Source: Bacillota bacterium
Lineage (GTDB): Bacteria; Bacillota; Sulfobacillia; Sulfobacillales; Sulfobacillaceae
Reading direction: 5' to 3'
DNA length: 64,000 bases
Assembly: GCA_021820485.1 (NCBI GenBank)
Contig: JAKADO010000001.1
Span: forward strand, 19,363 to 83,362
A program made the position numbers and the translations under genes. Shown here piece by piece: positions 6,005 through 63,523 of the stretch (position 1 is the first letter of the stretch; each line of letters starts with the position of its first letter). A model generated the notes under the pieces. It was not told where the DNA came from, ran no database searches, and saw only the letters and a list, made by a program, of their open reading frames with translations.

Positions 6005-6143
6005 CGGTGTGCTCCTCTCGAGGACTCATGGTATTCTCCGAGTATTGTACCAAATGCCCCCCTCCCTCTTGAAAGTGCCTCACAATCTCGGCACAATGGG
6101 AAAGATAGACGGGAGGATTTCTCAAACAAAGGGAGGACTTTCT

Positions 6144-15851: not shown

Positions 15852-17132
15852 TTATGAAGCATCAAATCCCTGCCAAAACTCCGGAGCGGGCGCATCGAGG
15901 ATCCGCAAGGGTTTTGCCATCAAAAAAAGCCCAGAGACCAGGAATCCGCCCGCTGCGATCCAAAAGGTCGACCGGACGGAGAGCCATAGAGCCAGTGGTC
16001 CGGCGGTCAAGGCGCCCACCACCTCCAGTCCACCACCGAGAGCGCGGAAGGTGCCGTGTACGCGCCCTAACCAATGGTCGGGAGTGACCTGCTGTTCCAC
16101 GGTGGTGGCGCCGATGTCGAAAATGGTGCCGAAGAGGTCCCCCCCGAATTGCGCCAGGAAGAGAAAGGAAAAGGCGAGCCACCGGCTGCCGTGCGCTGCG
16201 GGCACCGCGAAATTCAAGAGGGCATAGAGCAGGAAGCTTCCGCCGATCATGACCCCCATACGAACGTGACGCCGCACGGGCCGGAGCAATCGGGTCCCCA
16301 CCAAGCTTCCCAGGCCTCCTAACGTAATCAGGAGACCCAGCGCCAGCGGACTCAAATGAAGGGTCTTCAATACGTAGAGTTCGTACAAGGTTGAGAAGAA
16401 CCCTCGGAAGAAGGCGGTGGCTCCGGCGTTGAGCAGCAATGGCCGCAAGATGGGGTGGCGTCCAACGCGCGACCATACCGCCCCCAGGGACAGCGGAGCC
16501 TCCCTTGTTTGGGACGTCTCTGACGGCGCTTCGGGGCGATCCTCGGGGCGGGCGATGGTGAGCAGGAGCACGGCGGAAGCGACATTGGAGAGGGCGTCAA
16601 AGGCAATCGAAAGCGGCCCTCCAACCCACTGAATCAGGAGACCCATGATACCCGGACCGGTGGTCTCGCCAATCGACTCAGCAGTTCCTACGAGTTCGTT
16701 GCCCTCTTCAAGGCGCGTGCGCCCGACCAGCGACGGGAGGTAGGCGTGGCGCGCGACGGCGGTTACAATCCCCGCCCCACCAGCCAATACGGTGACCGCC
16801 GCGATGGCAAGGAAGGTCAGGCGGTGCAGGGCATAGAGCAAAGGGATGGCGAACAGCACGGCGGCCCGTGCCAAATTCGCCCCAATGAGTACCGGCCGCC
16901 GACGGGACTTGTCCACCCAGTGGCCCGCCCAGTTTCCCATCGCGAGTGACGGCAATGTGCTCAACGCGGCCAAAATGGCGAGTTCAGGGGCGGACGCGGA
17001 CGCCGCAACGATAGCGACAATGGGCAGTCCTTCGCGCGTGATCCGTGATCCGATTTCGGCCGCCAATTGCCCGGTGAGGTAGCGCCGCACATCAGAGTCG
17101 TGGAGCAGAGAGGATGGAGGGGATGATGTCAT
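15852..17132 (-). CDS. MFS transporter
   Basis: 12-TM-like hydrophobic protein; GNWAGHWVDKSRRRPVLIGANLARA motif between TM2/3. Confidence 0.85.
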   Translation of the reverse strand: MTSSPPSSLLHDSDVRRYLTGQLAAEIGSRITREGLPIVAIVAASASAPELAILAALSTLPSLAMGNWAGHWVDKSRRRPVLIGANLARAAVLFAIPLLYALHRLTFLAIAAVTVLAGGAGIVTAVARHAYLPSLVGRTRLEEGNELVGTAESIGETTGPGIMGLLIQWVGGPLSIAFDALSNVASAVLLLTIARPEDRPEAPSETSQTREAPLSLGAVWSRVGRHPILRPLLLNAGATAFFRGFFSTLYELYVLKTLHLSPLALGLLITLGGLGSLVGTRLLRPVRRHVRMGVMIGGSFLLYALLNFAVPAAHGSRWLAFSFLFLAQFGGDLFGTIFDIGATTVEQQVTPDHWLGRVHGTFRALGGGLEVVGALTAGPLALWLSVRSTFWIAAGGFLVSGLFLMAKPLRILDAPAPEFWQGFDAS

Positions 17133-17176
17133 GCCTCTTTTATATCATAAAAATTCGACGCCGCGTCCCGCCCCGG

Positions 17177-17776
17177 TTAGGATGAGGATTCCAACACTTG
17201 GCGCAGAGCCTTAAAAATCAGTTCATAGGGTTGCGCACCCACAATCTTGTAGCGTCGATTGATGATGAAGGTAGGGGTTCCATCCACGCCAAAGGCAGAG
17301 CCGAGCTGATGGGCTTCATCGAGTCGTGCGTCGTAGCGTCCGCTTTCCACGGCCCGAACCATCCGGTCACCATCCAGTTCGGCCTGTTCGGCCGCCAATC
17401 GGAGCACATCCCAACTGCCGATGTCCTCTCCACACGTGAAGTACCGGTAAAATACGGCGGGGTGGAACTGGCCGAACCGACCCTGGTCCCGGGCGAACTC
17501 GCTGGCGAGGAGCGCTCGATGGGAGTTGCTGAGGCGGTCGGGGAAGTGAAACTGGATCCCATACTGCGCGCCTTGGGCTTGGAGGTGGTCAGCCATTTCA
17601 TGCCGTCCCGGGAAAGAGGGCATCAATTGCCCCTCAAGCGGGGTCTCGGGGTGAATTTCAAAACTGTACCACCGTACGGAGGCTGGGAACTCCTGTTCGA
17701 TGCGGTCGACAATGCCATTGCCGAGAAAGCAAAACGGTCATATGTAGTCTGAAAACACTTCAATCTCGAGCGCCAT
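17177..17776 (-). CDS. DsbA/FrnE-family thiol oxidoreductase with in-frame TGA at catalytic Cys position (candidate selenoprotein)
   Basis: Reverse strand: AGGAGG-8nt-ATG, MALEIEVFSDYI-[TGA 17740..17738]-PFCFLGNGIVDRIEQEFPASVRWYSFEIHPETPLEGQLMPSFPG... continuing in frame into the 17626..17177 ORF with FGVDGTPTFIINRRYKIVGAQPYE. Confidence 0.75.
17701..17731 (-). promoter_or_regulatory. putative bacterial SECIS-like hairpin downstream of TGA
   Basis: TCGGCAAT-GGC-ATTGTCGA 8-bp stem (one G-U), 3-nt loop with G at positions 1-2, loop starts 21 nt after TGA; flanking TGC/GCA can extend the stem across an internal loop. Confidence 0.5.
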
Positions 17777-17878
17777 TGAGACGTCCTCCTTTGGAGCCCA
17801 TTATGACGCCAAGCGCACCGAAAGGCAAAGATGCCACCCCATGCTCGGTCACATGGCAGGGGAAGGACTCAAAGCCCC

Positions 17879-18112
17879 CTAACGAGCCGCTTCTCGGAAC
17901 ACCCGGCCAGAGGTCGGGTTAGGATCGGCCAGCGCGGCTTCAAAGGATCGCAGCCATGCGGGAAAGCAACGGCGGCAGACGGCATCCACTGCCAAATCGA
18001 CCCGGCCTTCGCGCTGTTCCGAGCGGTAGTCAAATGGCTGATGGCAGCAGGAGCACCGCCGTTGAATGGTCCGCATAGGCATCTCGCGAAGAACCTCCGA
18101 TTCCATGCTCAT
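17879..18112 (-). CDS. small putative zinc-ribbon protein
   Basis: RRCSCCHQPF ... DAVCRRCFP paired CxxC motifs. Confidence 0.55.
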   Translation of the reverse strand: MSMESEVLREMPMRTIQRRCSCCHQPFDYRSEQREGRVDLAVDAVCRRCFPAWLRSFEAALADPNPTSGRVFREAAR

Positions 18113-18312
18113 GACGATTGATTGCGCCTCCTCGCCTCGTATGCGGGCTTTAGACTTCTTTGCAGTCGATTAGACCACCAAATTGTTACGAAATTGTGTC
18201 GTCATCCCGGGTCATCCCTTTGCACCATTTCTAAAGGTTTTCTGAAGACATGGTTCGTTCAGGTAGTCCTCAGTAAGGGGGTCTAGAATCGGTTTCGAGG
18301 AGGTTAACCATT

Positions 18313-19440
18313 GTGACGTCGACTTCGCGCAAAAATTATCTCTACAGCTTGGACTGGGTTCGCGCACTGACCATAGCCGCCGTGGTCATGGTGCATTCGG
18401 TGAGATTTGCCCTGGTGCCCGCAGACCCCTTAGCTGGCCGCCTTCTACAGGTACTGGTCCAATTCGGGCGGGTCAGCTTCATGATTGTCACTGGATTCAT
18501 TATTGCTTATCAATATCGCGAGCGGACGCCCCGCTGGACATCATTCTTCAAACGGCGCGCCAAAAGTTCCGGGGCGCCCTATCTGCTGTGGCTGATTCTC
18601 TTCTTAGCGCTTGCCATGCCGGTATGGCCCGTTATGCCGTTTGTCGGGCGTTTAAGCCGCGTGCTCTTTACCGGCTACGGCCATCTGTACTATTTGATTA
18701 TCACGTTTCAAATGTATCTATTGGCGCCCGTGCTTGTATGGGCGTTAAGGAAGTCGGGACGCCGCGTCATGTGGCTTGGGTTCCTGGGGATTCTGTGGGA
18801 AGTGCTTTCGTGGACCATGAGCGGCTATTTTCATGAGCGTTCCTGGACTCCGGCGCTCTTTGTCAGCACATATGTCGGCTACTTTGTCATTGGCGGCGCA
18901 TTGGGATATGAGTGGGACCGCTATGGGGCATGGATGGCCGATCACCGCCGTTACTTCACCTATGGCCTTGCGCCCACGGCGGCGATGGCGACGGCCATGT
19001 TTTTTCTCAATCTGCATTGGCTCGGGGCTCAAGCTGCTGTGAACGAGTTTCAGCCTATGAGCGCCATCTACTGCCTTTCGATAACGGCCATGCTGCTGGC
19101 GTCGGGAACTTGGTTTGAAAAGATGCGCTCCGAACGTTCCACCCTCGCCTCGGGCGTGAGTCTCGTCGCTGACGCGTCCTTTGGCATCTACTTGGTTCAT
19201 CCCCTGTTTGTGCATGGATGGCTTCACGTGGCGCAATGGCTCGGGATTGCGCTCAATGCCTATGTCAACACCGCTGTGACGCTGTCCCTAGGCCTGGGAC
19301 TCAGTGTTGCTATGGTAGCGGCCATCCGCTTGCTGCCGTTTTCGGAGTGGGTTATTGGCACCGCTAGACGCCCTGCAGCCCGGGTGGTCTCCGCCAATGC
19401 CACGGAGGGCACGGGCTCCAAAGCAGCGACCGCCTCTTAG
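18313..19440 (+). CDS. acyltransferase 3 family membrane protein
   Basis: YLYSLDWVRALTIAAVVMVHSVRF; multi-TM; FGIYLVHPLFVHG. Confidence 0.85.
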   Translation: MTSTSRKNYLYSLDWVRALTIAAVVMVHSVRFALVPADPLAGRLLQVLVQFGRVSFMIVTGFIIAYQYRERTPRWTSFFKRRAKSSGAPYLLWLILFLALAMPVWPVMPFVGRLSRVLFTGYGHLYYLIITFQMYLLAPVLVWALRKSGRRVMWLGFLGILWEVLSWTMSGYFHERSWTPALFVSTYVGYFVIGGALGYEWDRYGAWMADHRRYFTYGLAPTAAMATAMFFLNLHWLGAQAAVNEFQPMSAIYCLSITAMLLASGTWFEKMRSERSTLASGVSLVADASFGIYLVHPLFVHGWLHVAQWLGIALNAYVNTAVTLSLGLGLSVAMVAAIRLLPFSEWVIGTARRPAARVVSANATEGTGSKAATAS

Positions 19441-19488
19441 AGGGTCATTGGCAACGCGTGGGGATCCACGCAAAAGGGGAGGGATATC

Positions 19489-20190
19489 GTGCGGAATTCA
19501 GTGCGAGTCGCCGCGGCCGGACTGTCGGCCATCGTGACCGGCGCGGCGCTGACGGGAATGCTTGACTCCCGTGAAGCGTCCATTCCAACACTCATTATCG
19601 GGGGATCCGCCGCCAAGGGATGGCACGATCAAAGCGGACAGGGGTACCTGGTTCGCGCTTTGGCGCAATACGGATCCGTGGCGGGAGTCCACTTTCTGGT
19701 TCAAAACCAGGCGATTCCCGGAGCCCGGGTCGTCAATGCCCGCATTGCATCCAATTACCCCGTATGGATGCGGTCGTCCCGAGGGGGATTGGTCGTGATT
19801 GCGTGGGGATTTCTAAACGACTTGCGTTTGGGAACGCGGACGGGGGCGATGTTGAAGGTCATTCATCGCGAAATTGCGCTCGCAGTGGCTACAAACCATA
19901 CTGTGCTGCTGGTGAGTCCCCCGGCGACGACCCCGACCTTCACGTTTGATGCGGCCTCGGAGACTCGGCTCTGGCATCAAGTGTCCATGGAGGCCGAGGC
20001 ATTTCACAGCCAGCGCGTCTTTGTGGCCGATGTCTTGGGTCCCATGAAACGCTATGTGCGCTCCCATCACCAATCGTATCGGCGGTACATGGATGGCACG
20101 TGGGATCCGAACACGGCCGGGCACCGCCTGGCCGCTCGCATTCTCTCCCATGAGCTGACCATTTTCTGGTCAGGTCTGGGCACCCGGTGA
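19489..20190 (+). CDS. SGNH/GDSL hydrolase-like secreted protein
   Basis: LIIGGSAAKGW block I; VIAWGFLND block III; DPNTAGHRLAARIL; N-terminal signal-like segment. Confidence 0.65.
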   Translation: MRNSVRVAAAGLSAIVTGAALTGMLDSREASIPTLIIGGSAAKGWHDQSGQGYLVRALAQYGSVAGVHFLVQNQAIPGARVVNARIASNYPVWMRSSRGGLVVIAWGFLNDLRLGTRTGAMLKVIHREIALAVATNHTVLLVSPPATTPTFTFDAASETRLWHQVSMEAEAFHSQRVFVADVLGPMKRYVRSHHQSYRRYMDGTWDPNTAGHRLAARILSHELTIFWSGLGTR

Positions 20191-20263
20191 AGCGACGCCT
20201 TCCAGCCATTGGCGCGACCGGATGCGGGCAGGCGTCCCTGCAGCATCCCGGCGCCGCACCGTA

Positions 20264-42344: not shown

Positions 42345-42440
42345 AGGAGCCACTAGGGGAGCAATTGCTGAGACAAGGAACGATCGTTTCTTGGACCCTT
42401 TTACCTGATCTGGGTAATGCCAGCGTAGGAAAGTGGACAT
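42345..42440 (+). promoter_or_regulatory. TPP riboswitch (THI element)
   Basis: ctaggggagc...gctgaga...acccttttacctgatctgggtaatgccagcgtaggaaagtgg. Confidence 0.92.
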
Positions 42441-42490
42441 GGACAGCTCGACGCGTGTTGTCGAGGTCATCCCATTAGCCCCCCAACATG

Positions 42491-53831: not shown

Positions 53832-53914
53832 GAGATCCAGTCTGATGGCCTCCGCCGCGTTGACAAGGCTGAACGCCTCCCATACCATGAAGAGTAAGAA
53901 GTCGCGCACATCGT

Positions 53915-54065
53915 CCAAGGTGCTCGCCCCGGTCAGAACCGGGGATCACGAGAGAATAGGGAAACCGGTGCAATACCGGTGCGGTCCCGCCACTGTAATC
54001 GAACCGTCGGTTCGAGAGCCAGGAGACCTGCCTTGGATGCGCAGAATCCGCCTTCGAGGAAAGGT
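53915..54065 (+). promoter_or_regulatory. cobalamin riboswitch
   Basis: aatagggaaaccggtgcaataccggtgcggtcccgccactgtaatcg...gagagccaggagacctgcc (B12 box). Confidence 0.93.
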
Positions 54066-63239: not shown

Positions 63240-63420
63240 GCGCCTGACAACCCGCAGGCTCGCCCGAATATTTGCAGGTAGGTCTCCTGGCTCTCGGATC
63301 ATCGCGTCCGACCGGCCTTCCAACGAATGTTGTGGCGGGTCTGCTCCCCGTAAACAGTGGCGGGTGCCGCTCAGGAATTTCACCTGATTCCCTGTTATAC
63401 ACCTACAATTCGGTTGTCTC
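63240..63420 (-). promoter_or_regulatory. cobalamin riboswitch (reverse strand)
   Basis: reverse strand: aacagggaatcaggtgaaattcctgagcggcacccgccactgt...gagagccaggagacctacctgc. Confidence 0.9.
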
Positions 63421-63523
63421 GAGTGTATACACGTTGGCGTCGGTTGTAAACAAAACACATCCCACTTGTCATCAACTTTTAGTTCCCCTGTCCGAGGAAG
63501 TAAACTTGTTGACATTACGGTCT

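Follow-up and report, generated by a model that had tools for sequence, protein, structure and literature searches.

The minus strand of the stretch of DNA analysed here (the window; 64,000 nucleotides from a member of the Sulfobacillaceae) carries what is almost certainly a functional selenoprotein gene: judging from sequence, its UGA codon 13 would be read as selenocysteine (Sec) by the ribosome. In the proposed mechanism, SelB would bind a hairpin just behind the UGA and deliver Sec-tRNA-Sec, which SelA would make from selenophosphate supplied by SelD. The predicted product is a 199-residue, probably cytosolic thiol-disulfide oxidoreductase of the FrnE type, with a DsbA fold and a U-P-F-C active site. 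Sec13 would act as the attacking residue and Cys16 as the resolving residue, facing Pro168. The features concerned are collected in Table 1.

Table 1. Features of the predicted selenoprotein gene, with positions in the window.
Feature	Position	Strand	Details and basis
Shine-Dalgarno sequence AGGAGG	17785..17790	minus	8 nt upstream of ATG; read directly
DsbA/FrnE-like selenoprotein gene, predicted	17177..17776	minus	199 codons + TAA; frame, Pfam, homologues, fold
In-frame TGA, codon 13, predicted Sec (U of UPFC)	17738..17740	minus	same codon in 22 other homologues; rest TGC/TGT
TGC, Cys16, resolving Cys of UxxC	17729..17731	minus	invariant in 28/28 aligned sequences
SECIS-like hairpin UCGGCAAU-GGC-AUUGUCGA	17706..17724	minus	8 bp, 3-nt loop; comparative pairing
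Pro168 of GTPTF	17273..17275	minus	invariant in 28/28 aligned sequences

The gene extends from an ATG at 17776-17774 to a TAA at 17179-17177, and its 5' end reads ATG GCG CTC GAG ATT GAA GTG TTT TCA GAC TAC ATA TGA CCG TTT TGC. The original prediction had described an AGGAGG, 8 nt, an ATG and, at codon 13, a TGA that is the only stop in the frame; reading the minus strand bears this out. Readthrough gives MALEIEVFSDYI-U-PFCFLGNG...GVDGTPTFII...SSS, 199 residues in length, with the TGA as sole internal stop. When the TGA is translated as a residue, the Pfam DSBA domain (PF01323) covers residues 5-191 (E 4.5e-34), with a domain score of 118 bits against a curated cut-off of 25.6. At the codon level, the TGA sits at the first Cys of the CPFC motif of DsbA/FrnE proteins, which yields a predicted UPFC with Sec at the first CxxC position. 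Two further points of the original prediction also hold: codons 14-199 are intact, with no further disruption of the frame seen in them, and mechanical ORF calling takes TTG 17626 as the start, returning a 149-aa product that comprises the last 149 codons only and has lost the active site.

Homologues place this TGA in a wider pattern. A scan of 154 genomes of the class gave 21 matches at E <=1e-15, of which 16, counting that of the window, contain a TGA. Together with seven further TGA forms contributed by a phylum sample of 399 genomes, the 15 other genomes of the class bring to 22 the number of other genomes with TGA at the aligned codon. Each of the TGA homologues has exactly one in-frame TGA, always at the aligned catalytic codon and with no added disruption, which argues that the placement of the stop exactly on the catalytic N-terminal Cys, as originally proposed, is not due to chance. 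All remaining homologues are Cys forms, in which the aligned catalytic codon is TGC or TGT. These include loci from Chloroflexota, Thermodesulfobacteriota and archaea, found in a scan that was biased against Sec forms because one of its query peptides had Cys in the active site. The positions that do not vary over 28 aligned sequences are D10, C/U13, P14, C16, P46, G49, E93, P168 and G180. The tree joins the window gene to two Sec forms (92/88), within a clade made up mostly of Sec forms, and well-supported branches force at least six changes between Sec and Cys.

The gene was not found in any other species searched within its genus or family, so that conservation rests on homologues that are mostly 31-44% identical. 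Genes of 30% identity in two sister species were rejected as orthologues, since the tree places them in a Cys-type FrnE group of their own. The gene neighbourhoods of the Sec homologues varied, and no partner was found in them.

Selenocysteine insertion would also call for a signal in the message, and a putative SECIS-like hairpin, unmentioned in the original prediction, is conserved here and adds to the Sec reading. It begins 13 nt past the TGA; its GGC loop begins 22 nt past the TGA and opens with G residues. Twelve other Sec forms of the class have a stem near UCGGCGAG-GGN-CUCGUCGA in the same register, with 7-8 pairs. Seven Sec forms from other classes have 6-7 pairs at that place, with A-U or C-G where the class has G-C. 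Over the 20 Sec sequences, 93% of cells are paired and 10 cells are changed on both sides; the distant Sec homologues L012, L117 and L118 lie outside the hairpin register and are excluded from these pair counts. In a shuffle control, 0/500 reach the observed pairing, a result that overstates significance because the alignment rows are kin to each other; slid registers pair at 29-53%. Synonymous codons point the same way. At a Leu-Val pair, the core-clade Sec forms (the 12 others in the class) use CTC GTC, and their stem pairs; the same two residues are written CTG GTG in the three closest Cys forms, and these synonymous codons break the stem.

The case for the predicted hairpin is thus a comparative one. 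Taken alone, the hairpin of the window gene is modestly unusual (synonymous resampling, p ~0.013-0.015), and among the codon positions of window genes 4% have a stem this long. An Rfam scan of the gene region gave no match and no SECIS family. The folding energy of the 60 nt behind the TGA was not below that of shuffles (z 0.5), and therefore no claim is placed on folding energy.

The main alternative is that the gene is a pseudogene: a Cys-type FrnE gene in which a nonsense mutation has recently turned the Cys codon into TGA. Such a mutation takes one easy base change from TGC or TGT, and the other species searched in the genus and family are without the gene. The original prediction had preferred recoding to this explanation, a preference supported by selA, selB and selD (see below), by the conserved TGA in related genomes and by the intact frame. 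A nonsense mutation would have to be reconciled with the same TGA in 22 other genomes, with paired changes that keep the hairpin, with SelA, SelB and SelD in the genome and with codons 14-199 free of decay; it is very improbable. Still less credible is a sequencing or assembly error that hides a true TGC or TGT: the assembly is fragmented (164 contigs), but an error would not fall on the very codon where 22 other genomes have TGA, nor would it also produce a Sec-type hairpin.

Selenocysteine insertion at codon 13 would depend on the machinery encoded in the genome, the assembly of which comprises 3.24 Mb in 164 contigs and is ~92% complete. SelA (544 bits), a full-length SelB (352 bits, above its cut-off) and SelD (374 bits; its gene contains a single in-frame TGA) are present. 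The selD gene represents a second selenoprotein; behind its TGA (L085:2366-2397, minus strand) comes the hairpin GGUCC-GGA-GGACC, whose loop is GGA. The original prediction had made the Sec reading depend on selA, selB, selC and selD. Three of these genes are there; the UCA tRNA-Sec was not found in this ~92%-complete, 164-contig assembly, where a contig end interrupts cysK, its usual neighbour. Four congeneric species have the tRNA-Sec (UCA) starting within ~40 nt behind a cysK-like gene, and the genome's own cysK (81% identical) is cut short after 196 residues, where contig C151 ends (base 6118). Because the four congeners keep tRNA-Sec behind cysK and cysK is truncated here, the missing tRNA-Sec gene is expected just beyond the end of C151, in an assembly gap.

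The sole tRNA-Sec match above the family cut-off (L001:1501-1593, outside the window) was rejected as tRNA-Sec, and is not counted as proof of it, because it has the anticodon GCA and the discriminator U73. By its sequence features it is a Sec-shaped tRNA-Cys of the selC* type (PMC7609411). Such a tRNA (GCA, U73) also occurs in nine relatives, and the genome has a canonical tRNA-Cys as well. That the UGA codes for a different amino acid, such as Cys inserted by this Sec-shaped tRNA-Cys with U73, is most improbable: selC* tRNAs with UCA do exist elsewhere (PMC7609411), but the anticodon here and in the nine relatives is GCA, which decodes Cys codons and not UGA, and a true tRNA-Sec (UCA) is present in relatives.

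With UGA read as Sec, the predicted protein is readily placed among known folds. An AlphaFold model, computed with Cys substituted for Sec, has a mean pLDDT of 95.8; its best structural matches are Deinococcus FrnE (TM 0.80-0.87) and SCO1869, and a sequence search agrees with this fold (5cp1, E 1e-19). The model combines a DsbA/FrnE fold with the active site and invariant Pro by which FrnE-type DsbA-fold oxidoreductases are recognised. Pro168 corresponds to the cis-Pro position of thioredoxin folds, and from the family it would be expected in the cis state. Sec13 and Cys16 would be expected to carry out disulfide exchange. The chain opens directly with the first strand and no signal peptide is evident in it, so that the protein is probably cytosolic. 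Deinococcus radiodurans FrnE (5cnw, 5co3, 5cp1) shares the DsbA fold (TM 0.87, ~25% identity), but has Cys where the window gene has predicted Sec, and a longer chain. SCO1869, a putative DsbA oxidoreductase (3gl5), has the same fold (TM 0.85), but is 26% identical and also longer (239 residues).

In sister genomes, an MFS gene adjoins an amidohydrolase gene. Here, the MFS gene (15852-17132) is 66% identical, and the dsbA gene, an acyltransferase gene and a GDSL-like gene lie between the MFS and amidohydrolase genes (17150-20260). The match of these two flanking genes with the sister genomes indicates that the contig belongs to the genus. The segment of ~3 kb, present here and absent from the two sisters compared, was likely gained by transfer. 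Elsewhere in the window, Rfam identifies two cobalamin riboswitches (53901-54049 and 63260-63421) and one TPP riboswitch (42345-42448).

DsbA-like UxxC selenoproteins (PF01323) were first described in 2005 from the Sargasso Sea (PMC1088965), then in genomes in 2006 (PMC1794560) and again in 2008 (PMC2398784); the table of a 2026 review includes them as DsbA-like form 1 (PMC13188914). As the group has been known since 2005, the window gene adds to it as a further example. Shared features are the DSBA domain, the predicted Sec at the first active-site position and the hairpin behind the UGA. The window gene differs from the family of PMC1088965 and PMC13188914 in its lineage, and is likened to it by description, not by direct comparison. 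A more far-reaching proposal is plausible but tentative, namely that there is a distinct, unnamed FrnE-type selenoprotein subfamily across the phylum, gained here on a small segment absent from the sisters compared; its members would share a GG-loop SECIS and have switched several times between Sec and Cys, with the hairpin lost in step through synonymous changes.

Standard annotation loses the active site of this enzyme, and the gene is invisible to ORF callers. The 23 Sec forms and their closely related Cys forms make a good natural test of Sec/Cys replacement and of the rate at which SECIS elements decay at synonymous sites. The lineage itself gains what is likely a selenium-dependent disulfide enzyme.
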